Source of the DNA: Tubulanus polymorphus | Lineage: Eukaryota > Nemertea > Palaeonemertea > Tubulaniformes > Tubulanidae | DNA: 64,000 bases | Reading direction: 5' to 3' | Assembly: GCF_964204645.1 (NCBI RefSeq) | Contig: NC_134028.1 | Span: forward strand, 19,876,153-19,940,152 | In this document: piece by piece, positions 14,969-51,503 of the stretch | How positions within the stretch are numbered: position 1 is the stretch's first letter | How the letters are laid out: every line of letters begins with the position of its first letter | Translations under genes and position numbers: made by a program | Notes under the pieces: model-generated | What the model was told of the DNA's origin: nothing | The model's input: the letters and a program-made list of their open reading frames with translations, nothing else | The model's database searches: none

Positions 14969-17900
14969 TTAACTGATGATGATATTTCGTTTTTTAGATT
15001 TTTCCGACGACTTCTTCATTTCCTCCAGTTCGGCCATTACGTCTTTGCTGTCGGCTTGTTTTTTAATGTAGTTCTCCAGCCTGTCGATGATCAAATCGAC
15101 TCGGTTCGAAAGCTCGCGGCACTTCTCATCCGCGCTATCTTGGGCTCCTGTAAATCGAAAACATCAAATCCACATATACCTCAGTGTAAGGAGGAAGATC
15201 AATGGATGTTGTTTGAGGTTGAAGAACAGCAGAAACTGTTTATCAAATTCAAAGGATGTTCTAATAAAAACTATGCAAGGAATCTGTGAGGGAAATGTAT
15301 AAACATTCAGTTCATGAGGATAAGTTGCTTTGAAAATTAGATTATAAACTGAAATTTGTAGAATTGGTCATTATACTACTTTTGGTATAGATAACGAGAC
15401 GAGTAGTAACTATATTGGTTATCTATTAATTTGACGCACGAGATTTCGCTACTAATGCATAGAAGCTTCATCAGGTGAATGAGAATGAATGGAATACTTT
15501 TGGTATATACGTATACGAATGTTGCGTGTATTTGTTTACATTTTACGTGTATTTACTGATTTTAACCATTGGGGAATATTTCTTTCATATTTCACCATGC
15601 TTCTCGAGGAATTAAACAACCTATAGTATACGTATTTCGAAGCTAGTTCCTCGAGTGAATAATTGATTAGTGAGACTCCATATATAAATAAAACCCACGA
15701 CCGATAATCTAGGTTCTAGTCAAATTAGTTCAAGAACTATGAAACTAGTTTCGAATAAAGCCAATCTGCAAATGTACTGTAGAACTTAAATCCTGTCTTA
15801 CAAACACAAACTAACAAATCCAATTTCGCAAACAGCCGCAGAACTTGAAAATGTTGGGTTTATCGTTGGATTGTTATAGTTCAATTAATGTTGATGATAT
15901 GCTATAAAGATCATACCATATATCAAGCTAGCATTATGTAGATAAATGTATCCAAGAAATAAATAGATCTTAATTATTTCAACTACTTTACTCTGTATAA
16001 TTTACTCTACCTGAAATATCCACAATGAATAAGTTAAAATGATTTAAATCCAGTTTACCTTCCAAATATTCCAACCGGCATTCTGTAGGGTTCCCTTCTA
16101 TTCTAGTCATACCGATGGCTTTTTTGAATGATTGCATCATAAAATCCACAATTTCATACTCGTTCGCTTGTCCAGCTATGCAATCCATCGCGTACGTGTA
16201 GCCCTCCAAAATGATCGCAACCATGAAGTTAACCATCATGAAATTTACGATGATAACGAATGCCACGAACATTAACGGAGCCATCACGGGACTGACTGCC
16301 TGCATTCGTCGGAAATTGAATTTATCTAGAATGGAGGTATACAATGAATTGAAACGTTATAAAATTGAATAATTTGGGCGTGAGAATGGTCGATTCGGAA
16401 ACCTCAAAATGGACCCCCTCCCCATCACTTAAGCGCGACGTACACGACGCGGTGAAGCACAGAAACAGGAAGCACATGTTTCCTGTGTTTCCCTGTTGTA
16501 TTTCCCTTTTGTGCTTCAAGCCCACAAACGAAAACACGTTTGACCTCGGAAACATCTTTTCCCGAAACAATGTTTATCGTTTCTTGTAAACGCTAGTGAT
16601 CAAGAGAAACGCCAGAAACATGTTTCTATCACCCGTTTTCCCAGTGCTGCGTTCGTTGGGCTTTGATAGAGACGGAATGGGTGGCACCCAAATCAATGTC
16701 CTCCGGATGGAACCCTCTGAACCTATGTCCCTATAGTAGAACATCATTCAGTGAGATCCTAGTAATAACACTTACTTAACATCATGTTCAATAATGTCTC
16801 CATACTAGCAATGAACGTTGAATATTCTCTCAAACGGACCATGAACTTCAGGTGACACAAACTAACAAATCCGAAAAACAGAACCAAGAACACGACCATA
16901 AATCGCATTAGTGGCCAGGACAACCACTTCATCATCAAAGCCAGGGCGCAAATCCTTTTGTTAAATCGCAGTAGTTTCAGCCCTTGAAGTGTCGATAGAA
17001 ATACGATCATTGCGAGTAAATAAACCGACAACTGCAAATATAGACAGATAACATTATACAAACATATGACAATCACAAACGTTACATAGTTTATCATTTC
17101 CTCATTTCGTTAGTTGTATTCTGTGAAAATTACCTCGTCGTACAAAACGACATAGTCAAGATTTATGAATTTGGTTCTGTCCACCATCATTTCAGCCATC
17201 GCGTACGCCCCGAAGAATCTCACTATTTGCATGAATATGGCCACAAATCCCATGAGTATCACCGCAAACTCGTAAACATCCCAAAATGACTGTAAAAAAA
17301 CGAACTTGAACGTTTATTGACGCCTTAAAATAACGCATATATTGCTTTTAATATTGTCGACAATAAATAATACGATATAAATCATACAATATCAAGCATC
17401 AAGAAAGTTATATCGGATTTGAATATATCGATTAATGAATTGAATTGACTGGCAACCAGTCTAACACCGATGTATTGATGACTTAGTCCGCATCTTCTAA
17501 AAACTAATTATTGAAATTTATCAAAAATAAAATGAGAATCATGAAATATATCTAAACAGAAATGAATTCCAAAAATCACAGTTTTAATTCTTATTTTGCA
17601 ACGCGAATATTGATGACGTTGTGCACATCGACTTTAAACAGAACGCCTTCTATAACGCAGGATGTCATTATAAACAATATTGTAACCGTTTTGAAGGCGT
17701 CAAAAGCCAGATAACGAATAGTTAGATAGTGAGTTATTCGAAAACTACGGGCCCAGGGACACCATGCCCACTTGGGAAGTGGTTTCAAATGCTCAACAAT
17801 CTAACAATTCCAATATTCAACGCCCCCTGGTGACCATATACAGAATCCAATGACCTTGAAACTCACCAAAATCATAGAACATGTCAGCAGCTACGATTTT

Positions 17901-20658: not shown

Positions 20659-23600
20659 CTGCAGAAACAGGCAACGAAAGTGACCGATGAAAACGTATCA
20701 TAAGAAAATAAGAAATAAGATACCCCGAAATGCTGAGAGTAGTATAGTCAGAGGGGGGTTCTGGCACAGCTAACTTTTGGGCTAACTGTGCTAATGTGAG
20801 CTAACTTTGAGCTAATGTAAGCTAACTTTTGAGCTAATCTGAGCTAACTTTTGAGCTAATCTGAGCTAATGTCGGTTAACATCTGAGCAAACTTTTGAGC
20901 TAATCTGAGCTAATGTTGGTTAACATCTGAGCTAATCTGAGCAAACTGTTGAGCTAATGTGAGCTAATATCGGTTAACATCTGAGCTAATTTGAGCTAAT
21001 GTCGGTTAACATCTGAGCTAATCTGAGCTAACATTGAGCTAATGTGAGTGAATGAATGTTAATACCGAGCTAATGTGAACTAGTTATCGGGCTAATGTCT
21101 ATGTGTTATATGGAGCTAATGTGGGTTAACTATTGAGTTAGGTATTGAGCTAATGTGTGTTAATGTTGTGCTGATGAGGGTTAACAGCGGGTTGTTTATA
21201 CTATTTCTGGTATATGAGTAAATTTCTGAAAGTATTGTGAAAGGGGGTACAGTAAAATCTGATAGAACAAAGTATATGTTATAAGTATGGTATGATGATG
21301 TAATTATTTCGAGTGTTAATTAAACAGGGGAGACAAAACTATAAGTATAGCAAGATATTTTTTATTGAATGTGTTTGAAATGAATTCAACAGACAGGTGT
21401 GGATGTGATGGTGAATGTAGTCGAATAACAATAGGGGCTAACATGATAGTTGGGATATGCGAACCCAGATGACCTGTTAATGAGAATACAGAACAATAAC
21501 ACTCCGGTGTAATTTCGAGAGTTCCCACCGACGGTAATGGCATTTTTTCTCTTTATAATCTTCATTATGAATACTGGGTTCAATGTGATTTATTAGGTTT
21601 TGCTTCCGAGAATACTATCATAAATGAATTTATCGTCGGACATCTGTATTGAAACTCCCTGTTCTTTTCAAAAAGTAATGTGTTCAGAAGGTATTATCTG
21701 TTTGTTTTATTCGTTTCTGTTGATGACTGTTTGACTGAATAGATAGTAATATAGATTTTCTACTCTGATGACCATCCCGGTGGTAAACCGTGAGAAAGTT
21801 TGAATATTCTCTTAACAGGGGGGGTAAAACAGACATAGGTGGAGTGACAGTATTTAAAGAAACAATGAAGATCAATCACGTGATTTAAAGTAGACCAATG
21901 GTATGATTCTGTGGTAACTTAAAAATTACGTTGATTGGTAAATTTTAACATCCTATTGTTGATCGAACATTTAAAAATGCCGACTACCGCAGCACGGTCT
22001 TTTTCGTTCCAACGCGCCGAAGTATCCAACAACGCAGAACCACGCTATCATCATCATCATCATCATCATCGACATTATCGTCACCAAAGGAGACTAAGGA
22101 AAGAAAACTCATTTACTAAGGTAAGCTACGTATTATTTTCCTTAATTCTACATAATTCTTTTGTTTAGATATTCTCAATGTGAAATATGTATACTCGTTA
22201 TCGAAATTTTTGCATTGTATCGAAAAATATTTTACAATTTTTATCAATTTTTTAAGATGAAATTTACATTCTAATGAAATACTTACTAACAAATTGTTTA
22301 ACATAATAATCATTATACTCGTAATCAGTTTTACTAAAACTACTGAATATCTCGGGAAAACACATACCGTGTGAGAGAAGAGTTACAAAATATATGCAAT
22401 AATATCCGCAATTCGTACTAAACAAACTTTGTACTCTAACTCGAGAATAATCCCAGTAATGACAGTGTGTATCTAAATAGTTTCTTAATATAATATTATA
22501 GAATTGCGGTTGTTGTCCGTAACTATCTAGGAAATAACCTTGTTTATTTGCAAATATTATAAAACAAATCCAATGTTCTCCGCTCTTATCACTATTTTGA
22601 GAGTTTACAATGAAAATACTGGGATACTCAGGAGGTTCGGGTAAACGATCAGCTGCGTAGACACCTTTAAACAATTTGTTCGCACAGGTATCTTCGCGCA
22701 AAATATTAATTAATTGATCGGTATACAACATCTTTTTAAAAATCTGTGACAACAGTGCGGTCTTTTGTAATTTCCAACACTTCATCAAAGTTGGCGTATA
22801 ATAGTAAATTAATATTTTCTGGTAGAGGTTTTGAAAATTCCAATTCCACGCGAAGGGAACCCTTTTTACTGATAGCCAGGTCACTGAATCCGAAATCAGG
22901 TGTCAGATCGAATGCGGTTAGGAAATATCCGTTAGCATAATCTTTTCTGGTTATTCCAATTGTCTTATCTTGATATAAAATACCGGTGCCAGTGAACAAT
23001 GAGAAATATCCTTCACTCAAGTCTTTCGACTCGAAATTTATTGCCGACGCTTCAACTTGCGACCCATTGATGGACACCGCAATTCTAGCGATATCATAGT
23101 GTTTAAAGTCGAACGGGTTTTTATCGTAACTTCCACTCAGCGATTCGTCCGAGCAGAATCCGATAATTATATTCCTCGGTAAATTTCCAATTATCAGATT
23201 ATCTCTTATAACACTGCGTACTCCACGTGGTATATTCACCGGAAAAATGCTTGTTTTTACAAAATGGTATTTGGCATTACTAGTAGCCAATGCTTTCTCA
23301 TGCGCTAACTGAACTGACGGGCTTAGTTGTACTCGTCGCACATTTAATGTAGCGTTTTCAATTTTCACTTTGAACTTTACGTCTGGATTCGGGGACATTA
23401 AACAAAATGCATCCTTACTTCTGATTAACTTAACTTTAACCGTTACATTCGAGAGAAGTAGTTTATCTAGTCCGAACGCATCGCTGTGTAATCGAAGTTG
23501 CGCTTTTACGAGATTGTTCGGCTTTTTCAGTAAATCATAACGTTCTTTGAGACCCGAGTTACAATTCGCGCTTCTAGGATCTGTATCGTTCATACGCCCG

Positions 23601-26600
23601 GCTTCGTCTTTATATATCATAGCACTTTCCATCCATCCCGGTTTCGTAGATGATTGACAAAATATCAAGTTCTCAATAGCGGCTCTAATCGGGTGTAAGT
23701 CCATTCCATTACTAATTAATTTGTCGTTGAATCGTACCTCGACGTCACTGAATAGTGACTGAGCGTAATTAATAAGGGTAGCTACGGGATCATCTGCTTT
23801 GTCATTGTTCATCGGACTGCCATCGCCCTTTACAATTTTAAACGTTGCATCTAACCACGTGTGGTTTAAATCTAGATAATGTTGTGAGTTACCGGTTATA
23901 AGAAAATCGATATTTCCGCTATCCGTAATTGTAGCTAACGGTTGATATTTAGCATAATGTGCGGACTCCATAGTGATATTAGTCATCGGCAGTGAAAAGA
24001 TGTCCAATTCACTCTTGAGTGCAGGGTGCGAGTCTTTGTGTACTTTCAAACCCATGTTATATCAGTGTTGATGTTGGCGATAACAATGAAGATGTTAACA
24101 ATGATAACGATCAGTTAATTAATATGCTTCCAGGCTTTCGATTGTTCCACGTTGACGTTTCACCCGACGTCTATTCGACTTCGATTTTACTTTACGTTTT
24201 CTCTGATTATTCGGGGCTTTTAATACATTTCGAACGGCTGTTTTACCGTTATTCAATAACGATTCTCCTAGATCTCTTCCACCAATGACGTCACCTATTG
24301 TGTTGACACCGGCTTTAACTATATGTGGTGCTGCTTTCTTTGCAATTGTCTTAAACAAAGGGATCGCTCCCCTGAATAATCCTCCCAGAATAGATCCGAT
24401 TCCTGCTCCTTTTTGTATCGGTCTACCGTGATAGAAATCATTCCCGCCACCCGCCTGCCGTAAATAATAATTACAGCAAGCGTCTTGATCTATGATACAT
24501 TCGGTTTTCATAGTAACAACTTTCGTCTAAAATGTAACACGAGGGATACTTTGCCCCTTTTAAAGATGGGCGGAGTACCACTGTCCTTAAACATATAGAT
24601 TTCAATAACGTCCAGTCGATTACTCCTGAGCGGAAGATAATAAGGTCGTCTAAATTCACGATCTATAACTGTTTGATTTATATCGTTTACACCTACAATC
24701 CTTAACAAAGGTGCGCTATCGTGTCCAACTTGTTGATGTTGAATTAACTCTGAATAGATTAAGATGTTATGATTATCGGCCATAAGGTCGACCGGTCTAG
24801 ACGCTATGACCTCGACGTAGCCGAAGTTATCGGATGAACTTGCTTTTCCTATGATTTTAGTTTCGGTAATATCATCACTAAAAATGTCGGCGTCGACTAC
24901 ATGCATCGAAGGGAAGCCCAACACCCAGGCTAATTCCTTCCTGAACTTAATTTTCGCGTTAGCGGATAATCTAATCGAAACTCGTTGGCTTATCTCATTA
25001 TACATTAGTTGTATTTTATTCGCTGCCGGTGATCGCGTTATAACCGAGTTCACATGTTCTATCAATGTTTCGATATTTCTATACACACCGCCTGGCACGC
25101 TATACGCGTCACTCCATTGTCCATCACCAGAGTCCACATAAAATTCTCCAGTAATTACGTTGTCGAATTCGCAATTGAAATTTATGTGAACTAACGCGAC
25201 TTCCCAATTACCTTCTAGGTTAATCGTCCCTCTCAATTTAACTTTAAACTTTTCTTGAGAGTTTCCTGGAAATTCATCCACGCTTCCATCGCTCAATAAT
25301 GTTAGATAAAAGTCATGCATTCTTCTTCTTTAGTTCTCGTGCCGGAATCCACGAATTGAATTTCGTCGGGTATCCCAACCACTTCACGAGCAACTCGCGG
25401 TTTCTTCCTCGACCGCGTCTTCTTATAATCTTCTCCACTCGGTAATCATCGTCGTTTTTAATTACTTTTTGTAATTCGTGACGATAGAATTGTCCCTGAA
25501 CCTGCTCACCCATTTGATCTATAACGTTATATGTCGGTGGGTTGTGCGGGATCTGTTTTGAAACCGAGAATATTTCGTGCGACCATCCGGGTAAATAACC
25601 CTTGTCGAAATCTTTCTTATATCTTGTGATTCTGACGGTATCCCCAATGGAAAACTTGTACTGTTTGTTCATAAGAGACTCTTTTCCGTATAGGTTTTCC
25701 CACACCAACTTCTCATTATTTTCACTAACTTGAGACGGGTTCATTTTTATCGACCTATGATACGAATTGTTGTAGGCATTTATAATCTTAGGAAGAACAT
25801 CTATATAGGTTTTCGTCTTGTACGCGGTCATATAGCGGAATAATCTTCCCTTTAACGTTCTGATGAATCGCTCGACAATACTACATTTCACTGTATCCTC
25901 GCTCGTAAAGTGATGAATGTTATACTTCTTTGTTATCTTACTAAAATATGCATTCAAAAATTCTTTGCCCTTATCACTTTGAACTTTTTTCATACGACTT
26001 TTAATCGCTATACCTTCGAATGCGCTACTAACTTCTCCACCATTTTTCGACTTTAGGGGTATGGCGTAAGCGAATTTAGAAAAAACGTCGATCGAAACCA
26101 GTAGATATTTAATTCCTTTATTATACTTAGATATATTCGATAAATCACACAAATCGATTTGATGCTGTTGATTGATACCGGATACTATTGTTCTATTCCT
26201 CTTGAAACGCACGCGAGTAGGACGATGAAGCGTATATGCCTCTTGCGATTTCAGAAAGTCTCTAATAACGTCTATACCAATTTCATTTCCGGACAGCTTC
26301 GCGGTGCGATGTAATGCATTCAAACCACCGAATGCGCTTGGGTTTTCTGGGTTGTAGTACAGGTTGTTCAGTATCTTTTTCAAGTCCGAGGTCAGGCGAG
26401 TCGACATCGTCTTTCACTTTTGACTGTTGCACACAACACGAAATGTTGAATTTTTTACAATTAATGTTAATGAGCGATTGCGGTAAACAATCAGACTTCA
26501 TCATTTCGTTATCCCGATTATTCACACATATGCATATTGAACAACACATGCGGCAACACCGAAATCATCTGCTTTAAAGATTTACACCCGCTAATAATCA

Positions 26601-29600
26601 CACATCCCTTATGTTGTATTATAAATGTAACATTTCCACAGCGAGATATGAGGCTGGGGGTGATCTCCGGATCATATCGTCCACCTAATAACGTGTGTAG
26701 TTGGGATAAGTTAACTTTAATTCCCGTTCTCGCAACACCTGTCATTGTTTGAATTTTAAATTCTGTCAATCTAACGGCGGCAGTGGTATTAATCTTTTGT
26801 ATCAATCTAGCAAATCGTCGCACACTGGTATAACTCTCGCTGGATGACTTTGCTCCGTTACATACTATTCTCCCGCTTGCGAATAATAGACACGTGCCCC
26901 TGATGCGCTTATTCCTAAGAATTAATGCGTTAAATTTACGAGGGTTGTACACTACGTTTGACATTGTCCTAGACAACTCCTCTAGATTGAGCTTACAATT
27001 AAGATTTGCAGTCGCTACTACATTAACAACGTCGATCATTTCTGATGTTACCATTACGAGAACTAGATACTAAATGAACTTGGATAAAATGAGATAGAAT
27101 CTAAATTTTCTCCATTCATTCTCTTTCAGATATAGATCACTCGACGACAACGACGACGACGACGTATATTAGAATTTCAAACTTACATTAGATTCATCAA
27201 AACGTATCAAGACAATCGAATAAAAAAGGTAATCCGATGATAAATTAGCTTTATCATTATTATTATTATTACTATTATTATTATCATTATATTCTACAAA
27301 TACACTAAACAAAAATATGTTCACATATAAATCCAATTTTCGAAATCTATATCTTTAGAATTTTTAGATGGCGTAGTCATCCTCCTCCTCTTCGTCATCT
27401 TTGCTTCGAATTCATTCTTAACGTTCGGGCGATTGTTAATTAATTTATTTCTAACGAATTTATTCGGGATAAACGTCTGTGGAACGGACATATCTTGTAA
27501 TGCCTTGATGAAATCGTCGAGTCCGTTCATTTGTTGAGACTTGTTAGGTGTCATGCAGAGATTGATTAAATCGACGATATTACTATCATCTCTTTTGACT
27601 CCTTTTACTATTATCTCCCCCTTATCGGTCCATGACAATATTTCGGAATATCGCTTTATTCGCTCCAATAACATTTCCGATTTCTTTCTATAGTTTTTCG
27701 GTACGTTATTCAAAATTTCCTGGTCGAATTCACTTTTAGTTTCGGTAGTTCGTTTTAAATCACGATCGGTATTCAATGCACTGCTTTTACTTACTATGTT
27801 AGAATTAGTGATCGTCGACTCCTTTGAATGTTTTTCGATTTGCATTAGTTTATTCAACGCGTCGTTATACATCTTCAATTTCACGTCGTCCTTCACATCA
27901 TTATCCATTTGAAGGATATCGGACATTTGACTTTCTATATTTTTCACGCGATTCGTTTCACCACTCGAAGATTCTCGCTTGTCATCGGTTGATGTGATTT
28001 TTTCAATCATGGGAATAAATGATCCCGGAACAACGTAAAGTTTTTCAACGTTCTTCATTCCATAAACCCGAGTAGTCGACCGATTCCTTTCAGTATCAGT
28101 CCAAGGAAACCGCCTTTTTGCACGATTAATGATTTTTTCGATTTAATCGGTACTCGTCTATTAGCGAGAATTCGAATCCACTTCTTATGTCGCTTCAATT
28201 TCTTTTTATCCGATTCGCTGTGTTTGATATTCCCTCTTAATGAATTTATACAGACTTCGCAAATAACTTTCACTAATCTGTTCGACGATGATGACAGAAT
28301 CGCATCGCGCATATTTTTCTTTCCATCGCATAAAAGTCTTAAGTGAGGAGCGAATTCCTTCAAATGCAAGTGGTTCCTCATTTTATCAATTGACGATGTT
28401 CGCGTGAAATTACATTATTTAATACTTTTTATCTTATAATAAATATGATATCCCTCGCTGGGAAATATTCGTGTGCGTAATCTCCATTTGTCCGACGTTT
28501 GTGGTTTGAAATCACAAAATAGATATCCACGCGGTGAAATTGAGGTCGCATCTGTAAACGCCTCCTCGAGCGATTTACCTAACCCGGACTGCATCGCTAA
28601 AGTCTTTACTTGGAGTCGATCCCTCGGATGCTTGAATAGAACTATATAATGCGTGTTTAACGATATTGTCCGAAAATGAGGTCCTCTCGGGAAAAGGGTT
28701 TGCGATATTAGAATCACTTGAAGTTTTCTATGATGACTACCACGTGTAAAAATGGTCTCCAATAATTTGGGGTCGCACTCGTTCAATACATCATCCAAAA
28801 TAAGTAGTTTTGTTGTCTCTGAACCTGACAAACTTTCGTACAATTCCTCTGTTAAACCCTTAATAAACTCAACTCCCTCTGTATCGTGATAGATTTCCTG
28901 ATCTTCGGCGTACACCCAAACTATACGATCGGGAAATGGATCGAACATTCTTTCTTCAATCAATCTTTTAGTAAAGACTGTCTTCCCGATACCAGTCATT
29001 CCATTGATAATCGACGTGAACCATCCTTGCAATTTAGTCGGCGGTAAATCAGCTATTTCCATTGCCCCCTTTTACCACAGATTAACAGAATCAAAATTAA
29101 CAGCGATCTATCCAAAACACGTTCATTTTAAAGATTATTATCCACACATTATATTTATTTCTGTCTTCCTTTCTTTTTCTTTAGATGGCACAGAAACAAG
29201 TATCAGAACGACTCAGCTTTGGACCAGTCGCCCTACCCAAGCGGTATGGGTGCACAATGTGCGAGCTGGTGTTCGCACACGCCAGCTCGAGATCCCGGCA
29301 CATTAACCGGGTGCACAAAAAGAGTAAACCGCTTTGTGCCAAATGCGGGGAGGGGTTTAGCACGACGGCCTACCGGGACAGGCACCAATCACGTTGTGCG
29401 AGACCCCTCCCAATCCCAGCGGCACGACGGCGACTGGTCCTTGAAGCACCGGCACCGCCAGCAGCAGCAGTAGGGGCGCCGCCAGCAGCAGCAGTGCCAG
29501 CAGCAGCAGTAGGGGCGCCGCCAGCAGCATCAGTGCCAGCAGCAGCAGTGCCAGCAGCAGTATTGCCAGCAGCAGCAGTAGGGGCGCCACCAGCAGCATC

Positions 29601-29723
29601 AGTGCCAGCAGCAGTATTGCCAGCAGCAGCAGTAGGGGCCCCACCAGCAGCAGCAGCAGTGCCAGCAGCAGTGCCAGCAGTAGTAGGGGCACCACCAGCA
29701 GCAGCAGGGGCACCACCAGCAGC

Positions 29724-29758
<35 letters not shown>

Positions 29759-32700
29759 GGGCACCACTGGAATGGGAATGGGAAGAGTTACCGGATCTTG
29801 ATGAGGAAACTCTTGCCCTCATCGGGATCCGGCAAGGTGGCGCCTTAGAGGGGTATGTACGAAAATACGAGTTCCCATCCACTGAAAACAACAAGTTTGA
29901 TTTGATTAAATTTTATAACGATATCAAACCGCATCTCATCCGACTGCTTAAAGATGATTTAAGTAGATTGGGTGGGATAAAATGGTTTACCAGCATTCAT
30001 ATAATTTTAGAAAAAGATATCGATGGTGTCCATCAACAAAGGACTGTGTATTTTACTAGCCACACTCGAAGTGCTTTCAATGGTGAACAATTTGACGAGC
30101 TCTTGGATCAGGCTAAGAATAAAATGATCCAATTATTGGAACAATACAATACTGAGGGTACTGGTTGGAGGTTTGATTATGTCGAAGTGTTCGATCTACA
30201 CGTCGGCATATATGAACCATTAGGTGGAGGTTCGTATATACCCTCTCCTCGTGTAATCGTTTCACGAGGAGGGGTTATAAATATCCAAAATTTCGACAAT
30301 ATGTGCTTTCTTTGGTCTATACTCGCCCACCTCCACCGAATGGACACGAACCCCCAACGAGTATCTAAGTATTTACGGTACAGAGACGAATTGAATATGA
30401 ACAATATCAATTATCCAGTAACCGTAGAACAAATACCCATTTTCGAACAGCAAAACGATATATCAGTTAACGTATTTGCCTATGAGGATGGAAATATTTT
30501 TGTTCGTCGTTTGAGTGATAATCCACGCGCAAATCATGTTAATTTATTATTACTAGTTGATAACGATAACGCCCATTATTGTTTGATAAATGACCTTAGT
30601 AAATTCCTTTTCCATCTAAACAAAAAGAAAGCCAAATGTTTTTGGTGTTTTAAGTGCATGCACTCTTTTTTATCGCAAGAAAATCTTGATGTTCATACTC
30701 GGTACTGTATTCAAGGAATACAAAAGACAATCATGCCACCGACAGATGAGAATGTCTTGAAATTTGTTAATGTCACAAAACAGCACAAACTGCCATATGT
30801 GATATATGCTGACTTCGAAATGTTTTTAGAACCGATTGAGGGGTGTAAATTGAACCAGAATCAATCTTGGACATATCGTTATCAGGTTCATGAACCGTGT
30901 GGATTTTGTTTTAAAGTCGTTGGCCCTGACACCAGACATTCCCATCCGACAGTCCTTTATAGAGGAGACGATGTTATGAAGAAATTCTTAACATCCCTCC
31001 TCGAAAAAGCAGAGGAAATATTACAGGAATACAAAAATCCTCAACCTTTGGTTATGAACGACGTCGATGAAACACACTTCAAATCAACTGATATTTGTCA
31101 TATATGTAAGGAAACCATAAATGGTAAGAAATGTCGGGATCACGATCATATAACCGGCAAATACAGAGGCCCAGCTTGTAATTCATGTAATCTGAGTTAT
31201 AGGGTTCCTAATTTCATACCTGTGATATTTCATAACTTGAAAAGTTATGACAGTCATGAAATTATTAGATCATTGGGCTTGGTTGAATTTAGGGGGTATA
31301 GAATTTCAGTGATCCCGACGAACACTGAAAAGTTTATCGGATTTACACTTGGTCCCCTACGCTTCATCGACTCGTTGGCATTTCTCAATACCTCTCTCAG
31401 TACTCTTACGGAAAATTTGGTCAATTCGGGTAGAGAGAAATTCATTCATTTAAACTCGGAGTTCCCCGCCAATAAACTTGATCTTTTATTACGTAAAGGT
31501 GTTTACCCATACGACTACATGACAGGTTCGGAGAAATTTAATGAGACAAGTCTCCCTCCTAAGGAGGCATTTACCAACACCCTGACGAACACTGAAATTT
31601 CGGTAGATGACTACAAACATGCACAGAATATTTGGTCGCAGTTTAACATGGCAAACATGGGCGAGTATCACGATCTCTATCTTAGAACCGACGTATTGCT
31701 ACTTTCAGATATTTTCGAGGAATTCCGCAAGTTCGCTCATAAGAGCTACGGATTAGATCCTTGTCATTACTACACTCTACCCGGCTACTCATGGGATGCC
31801 TGCTTGAAACTGACAAAAGTCGAACTTCAATTGTTCACTGAAGTCGATATGTATTTGTTCATAGAACAGGGGATACGCGGCGGAATATCTGTTATTACCC
31901 ATCGATATTTCGAGGCTAATAACAAGTATTTCGCCGATTACGACGAGGCCAAGGAGTCATCTTATATCATGTATTTAGATGCTAATAATCTGTATGGGTG
32001 GGCAATGTCTCAGGCATTGCCTGTTGGTGAATTTAGGTGGTTAGAAACAGAAAACGATCCCCTTTGGCCCGACGCTCAGGATATTTTAACGATGACGGAC
32101 GACGCCCATTTCGGCATGATACTCGAAGTGGACCTTGAATACGGTGCCGAGTTACACGATCTACATAACGATTTACCGTTAGCTCCGGAGCGCATGTTAG
32201 TCAACGAAGATTTAATGTTATCTCCGTATCAAAAGCTTCTATTTCAGACTTTGAAACTATCGTCCAGCAAGATACACAAGCTTATCCCTAATCTTTACAA
32301 TAAAACTCGGTATATTGTTCATTATAGGAATTTGAGGCTTTACATGAAACTTGGTATGAAATTAACAAAGATTCATCGTGTTCTCCATTTTCGACAATCA
32401 GCCTGGATGTCACCGTACATTGCTTTGAATACCGAATTCCGAAAAAATGCGAAATCCAATTTTGAGAAAGATATGTACAAATTACTGAATAATGCAAGTT
32501 TTGGCAAGACAATGGAGAACATTAGGAATCGAATCAACTACCAAATTATTAACGAACCGGGGAAATTGAGAAAAGCTCTAGCGAAGCCATCTACGATTTC
32601 ATGGAACATTATTTCGGAGAATGTTGTGGGGGTAAAAAAACAGCAGATTTCGATCAAGTTGGATAAGCCTGTGTATCTTGGCTTTTCAATTTTAGACATA

Positions 32701-35700
32701 AGCAAAACGTTAATGTATGATTTTCATTATAACACCATCAAGGCAGGATACGGGGATAACGCTAAACTTCTTTTTACAGATACGGATAGTTTAACGTACG
32801 CTATTCGCAGCAACGATTTGTACACGGATATGGCGGGGATTTCCGACCAGTTCGACTTTTCAGCCTATCCCACCGGCCATCCTTTATTCTCGGACAAAAA
32901 TAAGAAAGTACTAGGCAAATTTAAGGATGAGACCAATTCTTTTCCCGTTAAAGTGTTCTGCGGTTTACGGAGTAAGATGTATTCAATGACATATCTTTCT
33001 CCGGATAACAACGGAACACTTGTGGAAAAGAAAACTGCAAAAGGTGTTGCGAAGTACGTCGTTAAGCAGTCCGTATCCCATAATAACTACGTTGATTGCT
33101 TGCGTAATCAATCACGTATGATGGCTAACATGCGGTCTATCCGGAGCTTCAATCATAAGTTACATTCAGTTAATTTAAATAAAGTCGGATTATCACCATA
33201 CGACGACAAACGTTATATACTAGATGATGGTGTAAGCACATATGCTTATGGTCATCATAAAATTCCGGAGATAAATCATCATTAAAAGAACAAGTCGTTA
33301 TACTTAATATATATTTGCATATCTTTATTTATTCATAGTTATAAACATTGATTTATTTACACTCACTTATACATGCGTTTATGTTTTCAGTTTTACTTTA
33401 AACTATTTAACTAATATATATATATTTATTTATTTATCTATTTATTTAAGATTATATGAAAGTTGGTAAACCATTGGTTTAATATCGTTATAAGTGTTTT
33501 CTATATTTCTTTTTATTTCAGGGATGGGATCTAACTCGTACCCCCTCTAAGCGCACCTTTTCCCGTTTTTTTTTTTTTTTTCCTTTTCTACTTTTTTATG
33601 CCAATTTCCCTATAATTCATTTTTAAAATAAATAAAGAAAAAACCAGCATTTGATTATTAACATAATTCATGACTTTAGTTTTTGATATTTATCTATATA
33701 TGGATTGAGGATACAGGAGATACATATATTCATTAATCATCGATTTGGAATACAGGATGAGGATTACAGTAAACACACTGGAGAGCACCCATCTGATTCT
33801 GATGATCATCATTGAACATACACGCTTTCATCCCAACGAGTTCAGGTTCCAAATCAACGAAAGAAATATTCATCAGTTTCTCCCACTGTTTTTCAGATAG
33901 TTCTATCCCGGTTTTCGTATGAACTCGTTGTTCCGTTGCAGCTATATAACAAAAATATCTAATGTCGATTATAACCTTATTGAAACGTTTGAACACGGTC
34001 ACGTATCGGTTCCTACCGACGTGTAATCGAAAATCCTCTATGATATTATTGTTATTGTTGCTTTCATTAAACGAATTGATGGCGGAATTTATGGAATCTC
34101 TATGCCAGTCGAGATTAGCCCATTCTTGCAGGTGTAGGCTAATGCCGCGTTTCGTTGGAAATAATCGAAGGTCATCACTGAGTTCATAAGTTCGTATGTC
34201 AACACGTTTAACATCCTGCCACTCGCTGACACACGCAAACACTAAATTGCCCAGATAATGACGTTTCACATCCGCTTTCGCATAGACGTATTCTTCTTTA
34301 GACTCACTCAGTTTTATATCCGTTTGTACACAAGCATTCTCTTTAACAACCGTATCTATGACAAAAGAAAAGATAATATGGTTACATTACAAGTGAAACA
34401 ATAAATAACTCAAAGGAGGAGAGGATGTTTTACAAACAAACAAATTAATTACACATACATACCAGGCTTAGCAGCGTTAATATCTAGCTTTAAATTCTTG
34501 AAATTCAGTCTTCGAGGTCTCTTTTTTGGAGCATCAGGTTCAGACATGTTTCGTTTCAACACGGGAGTTGTGTGCGTATCCATGATCAACTCAACGAATG
34601 AAATCACCTTTGGAGAACACACGTTATATACCCCTCATGACGTCAGATATTTTTCAGAACGAGGATCGTAATCATCGAAACAATTGATAATTTGCATATG
34701 TTTATATTCATTCAGATCTAACCATATTCAAATGATCTCGTTTTTAAATTTCACACACACCAGCTCAATAGATTACCATAAAAACCGGTAACTAAATACC
34801 TAACTCAATAGTTAACCCACATTAGCTCCATATAACACATAGACATTAGCCCGATAACTAGTTCACATTAGCTCGGTATTAACATTCATTCACTCACATT
34901 AGCTCAATGTTAGCTCAGATTAGCTCAGATGTTAACCGACATTAGCTCAAATTAGCTCAGATGTTAACCGATATTAGCTCACATTAGCTCAACAGTTTGC
35001 TCAGATTAGCTCAGATGTTAACCAACATTAGCTCAGATTAGCTCAAAAGTTTGCTCAGATGTTAACCGACATTAGCTCAGATTAGCTCAAAAGTTAGCTC
35101 AGATTAGCTCAAAAGTTAGCTTACATTAGCTCAAAGTTAGCTCACATTAGCACAGTTAGCCCAAAAGTTAGCTGTGCCAGAACCCCCCTCTGACTATACT
35201 ACTGCTGAGTATTTCATAGTAGAGTATAGTATAGTATAGTAGTTTACTTGTCACCATCAATATGTAGAAAATGAATACCTTAAAACAAAATAGGTTACAG
35301 ACATTGAAGTGACAGGAGTCCGAGTAGAGCAATAAAGGCTGTATTTAAAAGGATGTTCAGGCACCTCGACATAAAAACGAACAAATAAAATAAAAGAAAT
35401 GAAAAGGGATGAAACGATGAAAAATGAAGATAAATTTATGTCATGCAGAAGTCTCTCTGAATGAAAATATATTTTAAAGTGTACATCAATCAAGCAGCTT
35501 ACTACTTACGAGGGTGCTGATAGTTGGGGCGGATTTAAAGTGCAGGTTGGCTTTGCCAAATTGAAGGAACTTTACAGAGGAACGGCTTATTGAAAATGCT
35601 AGTTTCGCGGGCCTAGATTCTGGGGTGGTTTCGAGCTCTGGTATTATATCTGTGATTAAATGAATTCCAATTAAATATATTTAGAATTTGTTGCGGAAGT

Positions 35701-38700
35701 TAGCTATTCACAAATCCGTATGCAAGTTTGATAAGTTCCAAGTTTATCATATCTTCGAATTTCGGAATCTGGATCTTTTTACAAAGAGGCATCTCATTAG
35801 TTTAAGGGTTTATTAGAGGGTATTAAAAACGATCCAATTGCTCACAACCATAAAAAAACTCACGGCGGATAAGGCATAAGTTCCAACGGTGTTGTTTCTG
35901 GTGTATCTATCGTTGTAGAAGATGTTCTCTATGTCTTTATAGAAATAGTGAGATCTCGTATCTCGATTTTCATAAGACAAAACCATCAGAATTCCAACAT
36001 ATATCGTGTAGAATATGATCTCCCAGATAATGTTCACCATTTCGATTTCCTTAAGCCTAAAAGAGATGAGAATTGACCATGTTAACACGACAAAGAACAA
36101 GGTTGCAGTTTTGCGGGTAGGATCGGGGAAAAGAACTGAAATATTTATGTATGTCATTCTAACCATGAGTTAAATTTCGCTTACGGCTGAGGAACCGCGT
36201 TTTAACTGGCTGCTTAGCGTTTAAACCAAACAACAAATGAACTGTTACTACGATTCCGACTAAAAAGCATTTGGTCCTAAGTGTGAATACCATGTATCTC
36301 TGCCTTTGTCATCTTTATTGGAACATGGATTCTTGATTCCATGATTGGAATGGCCTACAGTCTATTCCCTCTTATTCCAGGTAGCTTTTAGTTCCTCACC
36401 ATGTATATATGTCTTCAGTTTATCGAGGCTGTCATCTGACTTGATTTGTTTTGATTTATCTCTATTGCCTAAATTGTATTCATTCGTACGTACCTCTTAT
36501 CCCTGGCAGCTTTAAGTTCTTCCTCGTCCGGTGGCAGTGGTATGGCTTTATATCGAGCGATTTTTTCTTTAATATCAGGCGAGTTGCAGTAAGGATCGTG
36601 CAACCACTCCTCGTTGTCCTTGAGGCTGTTGTCGTACTCGCTCTCGTCCGGTTCCTCAAGGTCGGGTTTCTTGATGATCAGGGCGTAAAGAAGGGCCAAA
36701 AACAAAACCTGAAAAATGTCAAGGGAAGTGAAATGACAATGAAACGATCATTCATCTACTGAATGAAAAAACGAAAAAAAGAGAAATATATTAATCTTTA
36801 TTTATCTAAGCATAATAAATTACATACAATTAATGTAAACATAATAATGGCAATCAATGCATAGAGATGTGATAACACTTCATCACAAAAGTAAAAAAAA
36901 ATGCAAAAAGTTCGAACCCACGTGAGAATATACTATGGTGAATGTACTACGGTACCTTAATCGGTTGTTGAAGCATGATCGACTGGATGAGAGAAACTCC
37001 AAATGATGCAATCCACTCCTTAGAGCCTGATAACCCGAGGTCTTTGGAGAACATGTTCGCGAAATAGAAGCTCACTGCCACGGCAATAAATGCAAGCGTA
37101 TGGCCGACAATCACACACCACCACGGCAAAACCACTTTCTTCTTCTTCTTTTTCTGGTCGTCTTTTTTCGGTGATTCTGGTATTTTCCCGTAGCCCGATG
37201 CGTCCGTGTAGCTGATTTTCTGACTGGTTTGGGAGTCTTTCCAAGGTCGTCGCGATGGTGTCGCGGATTTTCTCTCGCCTGAACCGTAAATAAGTACAAA
37301 TGATTAGTAAGATAAGTAGCTAAATTCCAGTCAAAACGGGCTTGATTTAGGTATTTACGTGCCTGTATCTAGATACTCTTTTTCGTTTTGCAACTCTATT
37401 TCCATCGCCTCCGAAGCCTGGTCCGACTTCATTTCGCTGTATTTCGAGTCGCACACGCGTTTGTTGCGACAACATTTGCCACAGGCGTTCGGTGGCCAGG
37501 GACCGGACATCCTGAACAGCAGCACGATAAACACATTCACCGGTACGATTATCAACGACGCCAGGATAGAAACGACCAGTTGCTCGAGCGTAAACTTGAT
37601 CGGCCCGATGACAATTTGCGTGACGTTTTGCCGCATCGCCATCGCCTTGTAGAAGGTCAAACTGGCCATCATCGACACGTAGACGAGGGTTAAACAACAC
37701 GTCAATCTCTGAACGCGGGTGAAGTTGCTTTTCGGAGGTCTTTTGAAAACCGATAACCAAATATGCCCGTCGGAGAGGTCTTTGCGAGTTTTCGACCAGA
37801 ATAGATAGTTGAAGGCTTTCATCTCGATGTCTCCCGCTAGGGGAATTATTCTGTCGATCTGAAAAAACGCATCGACATATCTCGAGTGGACGATTGCTTC
37901 ATTAATGCTAAGGGTCCATTAAGGCCTACTAGTTTTAAACGTTATTACGTAGGTAGTAAATAATTAATTAAAAACGTTTATATTAACCATAACTTGCAAG
38001 GTCTGGCCCATTGCTAATTCCATCCGTACTGCTCACGTTTCAAAAAGCAATCTACGTATATTTCGGATCATTTCTTGCTTATCAGTGCTTATTTGATGAG
38101 AACTGTTGCAGCTAAGAACATATTTTGGTTATACATGTATCAGTATTTACAATGCTTAGGCAAAACAACACGTAAGGTCCCAGTGGAGAAGAAGGAATTG
38201 GAATGACACTCACCAAACCGTCTTCTTGTTCTACGGCCAACCATTTGTCACAAATGAACAGATATCTATCCAGAGTTTGAATATCGGTTACTTGCATCTG
38301 GTTGAAAAACCAAGACGGATTCTTGCCACCATTATCGTGCCAAATACTGAATGATACATTTCAAAATTAACTTTCTATCATTAGGAGAAACTGAATAAGA
38401 CAGTATGGTATCGAAGATCTACACTTGACAGTAAGAAACGCTTAGTTCTCCTAATTCAGATGTTGATAGAATTTCATTTAGAAATGATTTAATGTATTAG
38501 AACGTATTACCGTAAGTGCGCTAAGTTTCCCAGCGGTTTCGGCACTACCATAATGAACGAATTAACATCGCCTTTTTGAAGAACCTTCCTTTTCTCATCC
38601 ATTAAAACTCTGGGACCCGTATCACCATCTTCACCGGTCAATACAAACGATACTTGAGCTGTCGTACCTGAAAATGTAAACACATTAGGTACCGCAGGAA

Positions 38701-47450: not shown

Positions 47451-48006
47451 TATTGGGGTGATAAATTAGTAGTTTGCATAGAGGGAGGGAAGCCAGAGTT
47501 CAGGGCAGTGGCTGAAGTTAGTAAACAAACTACGTAGATGCTTACGTCGCACACAAGACACTGAATAGAAGATAGGTGAAAGTGACGTGAGTATCTGCGT
47601 AGGGTTGCTGGTTATAGCGGCAGCCTTGAGCTCTGGTATGGCTAGGAAGTAAACAAGTAATAAACTCGTGACGTATAACATATGTAGAAGTATACGTCAC
47701 GAGTAACATGAAATAAGATAAAAAGGGAGGGTCAGCACAGTAAGGGGGAGAGAGATGCTAGAGTGGCGGAGAAGCCTAAAAATACGAGCTGTAGGAAGGA
47801 ATAAGAATTGTGCGGGAAAATAAAGAAAGAACGTAGACCCACGAGAAGAGTTGTTATTATTCCGGAGTCAGAGGGATATCACTTATCGGATTAATCGGAG
47901 CCAACAACGACAACACGAGGGGAGAACGCAACGTGGCCCCCACAACAATTGGTTGAGAAACTCAACCCCACAACATTGTTGGAGAACCGAAAGCAACCCC
48001 ACAACA
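47451..48006 (+). repeat. 5' LTR, 556 bp
   Basis: Direct repeat of 50946-51503. Contains a 39-base hairpin (47665-47703), an AAGATAAAAAGG TATA-like stretch near 47.71 kb and an AATAAA near 47.82 kb. Its 3' end is a short internal repeat of CCCCACAACAxTGGTTGAGAA-type units. Confidence 0.92.
47665..47703. promoter_or_regulatory. Perfect 13-bp hairpin with paired CRE-like half sites in the LTR
   Basis: CTCGTGACGTATA and TATACGTCACGAG are perfect inverted repeats around a 13-base loop; each arm contains TGACGTA, a bZIP/CREB-type core. It is conserved base for base in the 3' LTR (51162-51200). A likely LTR enhancer or RNA stem; which of these is unknown. Confidence 0.7.
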
Positions 48007-50929
48007 TTGGTGGAGAACAGTGGTGTATCCTGCACCTCTCGCTGCCAAGCGATCGTGTATATTTGGTGAGTGAACAGGGGTGAAGTAAAAGTGTAAGATG
48101 AACGTTACATTCCGTAACCGTTATAATTACATGAAATACGGGCCGCTACCGCGGGTTAAGTTGAAATATTGCGGATAACTCGATCTGTGTATAAAAATCA
48201 TTCCCGTCAGGATTTAATAGCTGTTTGTTTGTCTTATTCGAGAAATATGTAATCTTCATATCGTCAGATTCAGTTGAAATGAATTATAGAGCTTCCAGTG
48301 CGGAAAGAAGTTGTTTCTTTCCATATTTAAATTAATTGAATTATCCGATTTGGTGTGGCGTTTTCGTAAGATCGTGTTTTGGACACTACGTTTTACATCA
48401 AAGCAAATTGAATTTACGACTCCGAATTTAGATTCGTGTGAATTAACGGACATAATGGCGTTCGGAAACGAAGCGATTCTGCGATCGTAACGCGATAAAT
48501 GAAATACAGTGGGGTATTAGAGGCATTATACAAACGCATTTCATCATCGGACAGTTCATAGATCTGCTACGGGAAATCGACCTTGGAGACGTTCAACGGA
48601 CTACGATTGCGGCTTATAGTAATTGTAAATAATATGATATGTATTTCTGCATGTTTTGATTGCTTTTGTAGAATGATACTCAGCGTTTTTAAGTTGCTTG
48701 TGTGCTGGGTTATTGTATCTACGTAGATATAAATATGCACTACGTAAATCTTTTATAGTTTGCTAAAATTGCTGGATGGTATTTCGCGAAAGAATGATTT
48801 ATTAGTCTAGGTGAGCCACTCGGTTATCAGTGTAACGATAGTTGAAAGCGCTCACTGCCTGTATATACCTAACAAATAACTGTGGTGTTTATGTGGTTTT
48901 AAGAAATATAATGAGTATCGCGAGTTAGTATAGAATATGTTTATTGTGCAAAGGTTAGATTGGGCGCTCAGTGGTGAATCTTACCGGAGGGGGTTTGAAT
49001 AGAGTAGTTTATATGAGATGAATTAAGGTGGACCAGGGACCTGGATGAAGAGTAAGGGATTCTCTAGGGATGGTCCGGAATAAAACGGGGGATTATAGCC
49101 CGAAGGATTAATTCTGAAGATCCTTTGAAACAGTATAATGTTTAGTGGCTAGCCTCTGGGAAAGATTGGATATATATGTTGGACATTATTAGGGTCGAAT
49201 ATCAAGAAATACCAAATGGGTGATTCGTCGGCCGGTTCCCTATTTATCCATAGATTTTATTTACTCCGGTAAGGCGTGACATGGGGGATGATACGGAAAT
49301 GAGAAATGTCACGATACAGCTATTTGTTAGGTATGCTGAAATGGCCATTCAGGGGATTGGTTTTTTAGAAGTAAAGGGTTGCTCATTGCGTAATACAATA
49401 AGTATGATAAGTATTATTCGGTAGATTGGGTATCTTAACTGAATGGTCGTAGATTGCAGGGATGTGTGAGCGCTATGTTTTTTTTTTCCGAACTTTCAGT
49501 CCGTCTTGACCGGTTTATATACAGGATGATGCGTCGGCCGTTTTACATGTGGGGTTATATCCCCTGATTTGCGGGAAGGAATTAGAACAATTCGAATATC
49601 AGATGTGGGTGGTTTGGAAGACCATAGGCCCAGGAGTTAAAGTTAATTTTTGAGAATCGGCTGTTTGAATGGCACTGAATGAGTAGTGTCCAGAGGAATT
49701 TTCCCTAACTTTTGGGTGATGCATCTTAATGAGTTTTGTGGTCACTTTATGACATCCTTCCATAAATATATGGCGGCCTGTCTGTCTATTTCAACGGTTC
49801 CAAGCCGCAAATAGCAGTTCATGTTATCCCTGCCTAGACTACGGATAAATGTGCTTTCTGAGGAAATGGGTGGGGACTAGCAGCTGACATCCCAATAATG
49901 CGAATGTACGCATGCGGTATATTCATTTTTGGTATGTTTTGGCTTACCTTTATGTTACGTACACATAGAAAAATTATTATGAAATTGTTTGTGAATTCAT
50001 TGTTGAGCATGTATGTTGCCAACGTGTGCTGGGCACATAATAATCAACTAAATGATGTATCTGGCATCTGTATTAATTTACGTCGTTGATTGGGGTCGGG
50101 ACAGGTTTGACAAATCATCTGATATCGGTTAAGGTAACGGCTGATAGTTTGGACAGTGGCAAATTGACGTGTTTGCAATGGTAATTTTAAAGACAAATTA
50201 GGCTGCACACACTGATTATTTTTTTTGGTAAAGATAACGAGAACGAGAAGAGTCAGAAAGTTGAAGTGGTTGGTCATATATTGTTAAATTATTAGACTAC
50301 ATAAATGTGGATATAGAGAAATGGGTGATTGTCTATGAAAGCTATTTGGGAAGTTGTGTTTGATATGATTTTTTTGCATGACTACAATTGTATAGGCTTG
50401 TTCTCATTAAATGTAAGATCAATATACATATGTACATGCCTCATGATTGTTATATATTACTGATGAAAAGAGTCTCATATTTGATATTTGTAGATGATTG
50501 CTTTCCCTTAGATAAAGTTCGTGTGTTAAGTTTATAAGTATCTAGAAATTTTTTTTTGCTTACCGTAAAATTCTATGGGGTCCATGTAGGTCTCGTTGAT
50601 GAATCAGATGAACTGATGATGAGTGGGGTGTGTTGCTTAGTTTAGGTAGAAGTTATGCGGGATGGGATAATAGGGGAAAGGGTCAGAAATTGTGATTTAT
50701 GGCTACTTTACAGGTGTTGTAAATTGATGTACGGAATGGTGGTTGTGTATCATTAGTCTTGATGTTCTGAAGGTTTTGTGTAATTTTCATTACCCTGCGG
50801 CTGGCTTTAAGTTGTAAGAGATGTTGCTTATAAATGATGTTCTGAAGCCTGTGCACTTTTGAAAAGATTTTTTTTTTTGGGAAACTACAATAGGGTCTTG
50901 TGAATTTTTGGCGATTGGGGACCAATCGT
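48007..50929. other. Internal region of the LTR element
   Basis: About 2.9 kb without gag, protease, reverse transcriptase or integrase motifs on either strand. Short open frames only. Confidence 0.75.
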
Positions 50930-50945
50930 CTGGGGAGGAGGATAG
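50930..50945 (+). promoter_or_regulatory. Polypurine tract of the LTR element
   Basis: CTGGGGAGGAGGATAG directly abuts the 3' LTR, the expected place for plus-strand priming. Confidence 0.8.
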
Positions 50946-51503
50946 TATTGGGGTGATAAATTAGTAGTTTGCATAGAGGGAGGGAAGCCAGAGTTCAGGG
51001 CAGTGGCTGAAGTTAGTAAACAACCTACGTAGATGCTTACGTCGCACACAAGACACTGAATAGAAGATAGGTGAAAGTGACGTGAGTATCTGCGTAGGGT
51101 TGCTGGTTATAGCGGCAGCCTTGAGCTCTGGTATGGCTAGGAAGTAAACAAGTATAATAAACTCGTGACGTATAACATATGTAGAAGTATACGTCACGAG
51201 TAACATGAAATAAGATAGAAAGGGAGGGTCAGCACAGTAAGGGAGAGAGAGATGCTAGAGTGGCGGAGAAGCCTAAAAATACGAGCTGTAGGAAGGAATA
51301 AGAATTGTGCGGGAAAATAAAGAAAGAACGTAGACCCACGAGAAGAGTTGTTATTATTCCGGAGTCAGAGGGATATCACTTATCGGATTAATCGGAACCA
51401 ACAACGACAACACGAGGGGAGAACGCAACGTGGCCCCCACAACAATTGGTTGAGAAACTCAACCCCACAACATTGTTGGAGAACCGAAAGCAACCCCACA
51501 ACA
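50946..51503 (+). repeat. 3' LTR, 558 bp
   Basis: Near-identical to the 5' LTR. It ends 48 bases upstream of the ATG of peptide gene C, so it replaces that gene's own promoter and first exon. Confidence 0.92.

Follow-up and report, generated by a model that had tools for sequence, protein, structure and literature searches.

A TATA-binding protein gene kept by one Polinton lineage of the nemertean Tubulanus polymorphus

Introduction

In the evolution of eukaryotic DNA viruses Polintons are given a central place, and we know of no settled account of how they are switched on. This question is raised by a stretch of 64,000 nucleotides from contig NC_134028.1 of Tubulanus polymorphus (called the window below; all coordinates are window positions), in which a Polinton/Maverick element carries a gene for a TATA-binding protein (TBP):

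26518..27054, minus strand, TATA-binding protein, 178 aa, two lobes, no intron

What use does a transposon have for such a protein? The answer favoured here, with a probability of roughly 0.6, is that the element supplies a general transcription factor: one Polinton lineage acquired a TBP long ago and has retained it as a regular gene beside a gene for the coactivator PC4. The protein belongs to the TBP family and, by prediction, shares its fold, the gene lies in a Polinton whose ends are intact and whose copies are recent, and it holds the same slot in five families with a low ratio of nonsynonymous to synonymous divergence (dN/dS), the proteins form one clade, and a PC4 gene is found in each family.

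Identity of the protein

The original prediction had read this frame as a TBP of two lobes without introns, located between an integrase gene and a gene for a 245-aa protein, and had named two outcomes that would speak against it: profile searches failing to place the protein in the TBP family, and orthologues lying outside Polintons. Profile, sequence and fold searches agree on the TBP family. The window protein matches PF00352 with 115 bits (curated cut-off 22.9) in two stretches corresponding to both lobes, all nine members of A1, the Polinton TBP profile, match the same family, the predicted model has the saddle fold, and the eukaryotic TBP structures matched in the fold search are about 31% identical to it. 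The position of the gene and its uninterrupted frame are confirmed; the host TBP gene has seven exons.

Residues were compared in 12 Polinton-type proteins (four near-duplicates left out), with six TBPs as controls, in a numbering which we take to be that of human TBP. The N-lobe residues F197, L212 and F214 are kept in 12/12, V169 and V220 in 11/12, as is N167 (one protein is truncated), and R235 and R239 in 12/12. On the C-lobe N257 is replaced by T and V259 by T or S in all 12, F305 by Q, H or L in ten and F288 by T or L in three, and the TFIIB-contact residue E286 is kept throughout; the six controls are canonical at N257, V259, F305, F288, E284 and E286. The window TBP itself retains the N-lobe phenylalanine pair and N167, carries T at 288, Q at 305 and T at 257, and is 40% identical to host TBP in the N-lobe and 26% in the C-lobe. 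It does not have the four intercalating phenylalanines and two central asparagines of a canonical cellular TATA binder, and judged by these residues is not classed as one. In human TBP the substitutions F305A, E284R/E286R, R235E and R239S impair transcription, according to PMC7221094, which also prints R118E, perhaps R188.

Such a protein, with the C-lobe DNA face altered while E286 and R235/R239 are kept, could also serve in host shut-off, by titrating TFIIB or TFIIA as a decoy or by competing with host TBP. We consider this unlikely, because a pure decoy needs neither the N-lobe intercalating phenylalanines, kept in 12/12, nor the other N-lobe DNA residues, kept in 11 or 12 of 12, and dN/dS is low over the whole protein (a single value for both lobes together).

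Distribution in the genome

In the genome of this worm (268 Mb, 77 contigs) TBP matches number 22 by protein search and 43 by Pfam search. Grouped by place they make 24 loci: host TBP, a host TLF/TBPL1 gene and 22 Polinton-type loci, 20 of which were read, the remaining two lying on C9. The TLF/TBPL1-type paralogue (L053, G000:C2:27277500-27278900), named by eye, bears introns. Five families, A to E, are told apart by identity to the window TBP: family A comprises the window copy, the copies on C6 and C7 and a broken copy on C4, and the identity falls to 69% in B, 46% in C, 42-43% in D and 36% in E. By tblastn, the gene order around TBP in B-E is the same as in A with two exceptions, namely a family C copy on C3 (L033) in which neither the capsid-place genes nor the protease gave a match, and the A-type polymerase, which among B-E was matched in B alone and, at the edge of L036, next to a second integrase. 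The orthologues thus belong to Polintons, where they occupy one and the same slot in all five families of this genome, and the counter-case of orthologues outside Polintons did not materialise.

In family A the TBP frame is open in three copies. These have perfect 6-bp target-site duplications (TSDs; GCTGAG, GATATT and AACGGG) and differ from one another at 6, 6 and 0 of 3534 nt, the reading of the C6 and C7 copies having covered their ends and 3.5 kb around TBP. Duplications were also seen by eye in one B copy (AGTGTT) and one D copy (CACATA); a family E candidate, TGTATG, lies inside a TGTA repeat (by eye), and in the family C copy L006, whose ends were inspected by eye, none was seen. Divergence was calculated over the whole protein for nine pairs, of which three had a dS of zero and three an undefined dS. 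Two family C copies, L006 and L007, gave a dN/dS of 0.068/0.545, A-B gave 0.179/2.08 and C-D 0.221/2.53, dS being saturated in the latter two. From these codon comparisons the Polinton TBP is taken to be under purifying selection.

It could be supposed that the gene is a passenger copy of host TBP with no role in the element, TBP being a host-type gene and the grouping with host TBP alone not being rejected (approximately unbiased (AU) test, p 0.123). This explanation is regarded as refuted: the Polinton TBPs of this genome are 31-37% identical to host TBP, whereas host TBP is 56-69% identical to five other eukaryotic TBPs (and 36% to archaeal TBP P0069), the Polinton frames have no introns against seven exons in host TBP, and the same slot in five diverged families, the low dN/dS and relatives in other sources all contradict it. 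Host contamination was rejected on the shared slot, the intron difference and the low dN/dS, and recent capture from the present host on the 31-37% identity.

Association with one integrase group

Searching the genome with the window integrase gave 1779 candidates, of which 112 were scored; they were split into 15 and 97 after inspection of the list, the 15 including the window and two near-identical copies. A TBP match lies within 1.6 kb of 14 of the 15 best integrases (43-100% identity, window included), and at the fifteenth (C4:21338949) a 54-aa remnant of the TBP C-lobe, missed by the genome-wide searches, is in the expected place. Among the other 97 there is no TBP match within 5 kb (0/97; the nearest is at 14.9 kb); for two of them about 4 kb on the TBP side was read with no TBP profile match, one stretch containing a reverse-transcriptase-like insertion. 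Because of this difference, 14/15 and a remnant against 0/97, TBP is seen as the mark of one Polinton lineage in this genome and not of Polintons generally. Counted from the TBP side, 8 of the 22 Polinton-type loci have no scored integrase within 5 kb: four (L015, L016, L017, L019) show an integrase-like frame, and the other four, one on C10 and three on C9, are decayed or barely read.

The 97 integrases, at 38-40% identity, belong to a second Polinton-like lineage that is far more abundant in the genome (G000, e.g. C6:9554332, C8:2488508). In 87/97 the integrase has no inner stop; the neighbours differ and no TBP match is found.

In another explanation TBP tethers the integrase to host promoters, that is, to TBP-, TFIIIB- or TFIIB-bound DNA; yeast Ty elements use TFIIIB for integration targeting. 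TBP and integrase are neighbours in five families and apparently both present on two foreign contigs, but the order of the other neighbouring genes is kept as well, the integrase already has a chromodomain, the six TSDs have no common motif (by eye) and the window copy adjoins polycystin-like frames. Integration targeting is therefore held to be improbable.

The PC4 gene

A second transcription factor gene, which the original prediction does not mention, is found in the same element:

33733..34355, minus strand, PC4/Sub1-type coactivator gene, second exon, two PC4 repeats (PF02229, E 1.8e-17; splice site by eye)
34463..34583, minus strand, probable first exon of the PC4 gene (intron GTATGT..CATAG, 34356-34462; no Pfam match of its own)
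34624..34630, minus strand, putative TATA box, TATATAA, in front of PC4 (by eye; an initiator-like TCATT follows about 30 bp downstream)

The gene lies between the polymerase gene and the right terminal inverted repeat (TIR), and its product matches PF02229 with 63 bits (cut-off 25) in two stretches. Since the main frame has no early ATG, an upstream exon is needed. The intron would join the main frame, in phase, to such an exon, which encodes a basic stretch resembling a nuclear signal (by eye); as predicted from this exon structure, the gene is probably spliced. PC4 is present in at least one copy of each family A-E (L029, L031, L035, L038, L039 and the window). Genome-wide there are 90 domain matches, mostly two per gene, which place PC4 at more sites than TBP. 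Many PC4 loci have no TBP, and some form inverted pairs 5-29 kb apart (C7:11957352/11962263, C7:11153031/11181874), perhaps shortened derivatives.

PC4 binds single-stranded DNA, and a linear protein-primed genome needs end recognition. With the PC4 gene near one TIR, it is conceivable that TBP is a replication or packaging factor which bends DNA at the terminal repeats or at an origin. This is given even less credence than a decoy or a targeting role, as the most abundant Polinton lineage of the genome has spread with no TBP match and the TFIIB-contact residue E286 need not be kept for such a task.

Relatives elsewhere and origin

A search with profile A1 returned 1748 proteins, and details come from the best 120 of these. 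The first six relatives (P0009-P0014) and P0020 join the Polinton TBPs in a 51-row tree; 26 further eukaryotic-type rows among the best 120, and host TBP, fall outside that clade. The longest contigs of P0011 and P0009 measure 9114 and 8156 bases. An integrase search yielded 5518 relatives among 8000 scored candidates, and two of the three best, P0129 and P0131, come from contigs of the same sizes and from overlapping sources, for which reason TBP and integrase appear to share those two foreign contigs.

In a 33-row tree the ten Polinton-type TBPs form one clade (support 100/100, stem 1.55), placed with the eukaryotes by the split from archaea (100/99), and 18 cellular eukaryotic rows stand opposite this clade (weak support, 95/73). 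The 51-row tree recovers the same clade with 13 rows (100/99). Whether the gene was taken from a host or is old in its lineage had been raised with the original prediction. The trees show one clade on the eukaryotic side, and grouping with host TBP (AU p 0.123) or host TLF (p 0.303) is rejected in neither case. The simplest reading of the trees would be one old capture from a eukaryote.

Scans of viral contigs with TBP, major capsid protein and integrase queries revealed no Polinton, and PHROGs gave no match. The sole locus from the viral contig scans, L023, is a 7.2-kb IMG/VR contig with an archaeal-type TBP, which stands among unrelated genes; the adjoining frames are phage-like by eye.

Proposed role in transcription

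As a general transcription factor of the element, the TBP would bind the core promoters of the element in the nucleus by means of its conserved N-lobe half-saddle and rewritten C-lobe. Because no TFIIB or RNA polymerase is recognised in the element (no match among 12 window frames scanned with profiles), it is proposed that host TFIIB, through E286, and host RNA polymerase II are recruited. Part of the N-lobe regulator surface would be in use, R235/R239 being kept and R188 lost, and PC4 may assist promoter opening or single-strand protection. Transcription of the element could then proceed without host TFIID and with a promoter preference of its own, the change in sequence preference being expected because half of the saddle is rewritten. 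That the protein would govern the timing of transcription and the promoters used, as the original prediction has it, is an inference.

Promoters were searched for six self-chosen motifs in a set of 21 upstream stretches, which includes shared divergent regions. TATTAA occurs in 5/21 (2.4 expected, p 0.083), and TATTWAA, in 2/21, is not enriched.

Several points weigh against a promoter role. TATAWA is not enriched (2/21, 3.8 expected), no 8-mer shared by the upstream stretches exceeded shuffles, and the initiator-like TCAKT, found in 13/21 (6.7 expected, 0/300 shuffles reached this), is the best of six motifs tried; taken together, no TATA enrichment and TCAKT offer a weak fit to a changed promoter preference. 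The TFIIB-contact residue E284 is kept in just 4/12 Polinton TBPs. R188 is lost in 12/12 and is Arg in host TBP and 5/6 controls, so the N-lobe regulator surface is only partly kept. The abundant lineage implies that TBP is dispensable for Polintons. DNA binding and the transcription role are deduced from sequence and predicted fold.

A more specific version falls somewhat short of even odds: a minimal portable module of hybrid-face TBP and spliced double-PC4 might nucleate host Pol II on largely TATA-less element promoters independently of TFIID. Just as tentatively, such a module could be called an orthogonal initiation system carried by a 14-kb transposon, a counterpart of the herpesvirus late complex derived from a true TBP.

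Relation to known systems

The element, 14.5 kb in length, resembles Polinton/Maverick elements and adintoviruses in its TIRs, 6-bp TSD, integrase with rve core and chromodomain, protease-, ATPase- and polymerase-like genes and capsid-place genes; it differs in carrying TBP and PC4. The novelty, which the original prediction had left unverified, is partly settled: the open-access full text (subscription journals mostly outside it, supplements excluded) yielded no Polinton described as carrying TBP or PC4, and this coverage is incomplete. A term search found no Polinton TBP in the main text of PMC11071308, PMC12220804, PMC10120064, PMC11071296 and PMC3671162; wherever TBP appears in the related papers covered, its owner is a large virus, a mirusvirus-like element or the host. 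Within that scope, virus-encoded TBP is already known, and what appears new is TBP, with PC4 beside it, in a Polinton.

TBP-like sequences are described in 107 dsDNA viral genomes, most viral TBPs being accompanied by a viral TFIIB (PMC7221094), and 59% of mirusvirus genomes have TBP (PMC10132985). For an algal virus that encodes TBP along with two TFIIB proteins, redirection of host Pol II was proposed (PMC12085832), and mirusvirus-like endogenous elements of a green alga occasionally bear TBP genes (PMC10675990). Large DNA viruses and mirusviruses share with the present element a TBP fold encoded by the virus, but large DNA viruses have far larger genomes, mostly with viral TFIIB (PMC7221094), no TFIIB having been found in the element, and their fold matches listed are 8-18% identical to the window TBP, mirusvirus TBPs being outside this comparison. 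In the ORF24-type mimic of KSHV (beta/gammaherpesvirus late pre-initiation complex) a DNA virus dependent on host Pol II likewise supplies a promoter-recognition factor; ORF24, however, is a mimic in a six-protein viral set, whereas the protein of the element belongs to the TBP family proper, and a comparable set was not found in the element. The proposed mode is similar to that of the herpesvirus late mimic and of viral TBPs, but on a 14-kb transposon and with host TFIIB. Cellular TBP, TRF and TLF/TBPL1 have in common with the Polinton TBPs the two-lobe saddle, the N-lobe DNA face, R235/R239 and E286; the Polinton proteins differ in forming their own clade (100/100) and in the replacement of C-lobe N257, V259 and mostly F305. 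In piRNA clusters of the fly a TRF2 complex starts transcription without defined promoter elements (PMC11125864).

It can be said that TBP and PC4 suggest an element bringing part of its own gene start-up kit, not relying on that of the host alone. A TBP-owning lineage makes promoter location, TFIID bypass and an initiation pathway of its own testable on a 14-kb element, and may represent an early step on the way from host-dependent elements to viruses that have transcription machinery of their own. Its TBP is a natural hybrid of canonical N-lobe DNA face and rewritten C-lobe and could help to show which half determines promoter choice.

Other genes and surroundings of the element

The element is assigned to Polinton/Maverick by its TIRs with a 6-bp TSD and its retroviral-type integrase. 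Its remaining features are as follows:

20732..20737, target-site duplication, left, GCTGAG
20738..21152, plus strand, left terminal inverted repeat, 415 nt, 100% complementary to the right one
22264..22785, minus strand, adenovirus-type cysteine protease-like protein (PRO; PF00770 E 0.0011, below curated cut-off)
22736..24055, minus strand, probable major capsid protein, 439 aa (place and conservation in A-E; no profile match)
24119..24511, minus strand, 130-aa basic protein, conserved in families A-E
24508..25320, minus strand, probable minor capsid protein, 270 aa (by place only)
25313..26407, minus strand, integrase, rve core and chromodomain (PF00665 E 3e-9, PF00385 E 1e-8)
27321..28058, minus strand, 245-aa protein, conserved, adjoining TBP in families A-E
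28055..28381, minus strand, 108-aa protein, conserved in families A-E
28415..29062, minus strand, packaging ATPase-like protein (A32/IVa2 matches below cut-off)
29185..33285, plus strand, protein-primed-type DNA polymerase B candidate, 1366 aa, with Endonuclease_7 domain (PF02945 E 2.8e-6)
34789..35203, minus strand, right terminal inverted repeat, 415 nt
35204..35209, target-site duplication, right, GCTGAG

The PRO-like protein had no match of weight among PDB sequences, and the capsid-place proteins matched no Pfam profile or PDB sequence, their names being derived from place and from conservation in A-E. The 245-aa protein was folded singly in order to judge a possible TFIIB, and this single-sequence model (pLDDT 42.7) was useless. 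The family C orthologue of the ATPase-like protein scores above the Pox_A32 cut-off.

In the polymerase candidate, polymerase motifs were spotted by eye in the translation and BLASTP connects it to the family D polymerase (E 2e-4); a profile search of this candidate gave no polymerase match, and the polymerases of families D and E match PF03175 (4.7e-52 and 9.7e-44). With the A polymerase as query, tblastn found nothing in the C and E pieces. In families C-E (L032, L038, L039) the polymerase type differs from that of A/B, the TBP and capsid-place block being common, which looks, from the sequences, like a swap of the polymerase module between A/B and C-E. The N-terminal part of the polymerase gene (29370-29822) contains a GC-rich Ala/Pro repeat (PPAAAVPAAAVGA), and short repeats of the type TTTGAGCTAATCTGAGCTAAC lie inside the TIRs at 20806-21035 and 34906-35135.

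A polycystin-type gene may harbour the element, its possible parts lying on the same strand at 16759-17097 and 35813-37822 (minus). One side has a PKD_channel match; the frames on the other resemble membrane proteins by eye and have no Pfam match of weight. Outside the element, at 47001-51000, the GC skew is strongly positive, up to 0.42.

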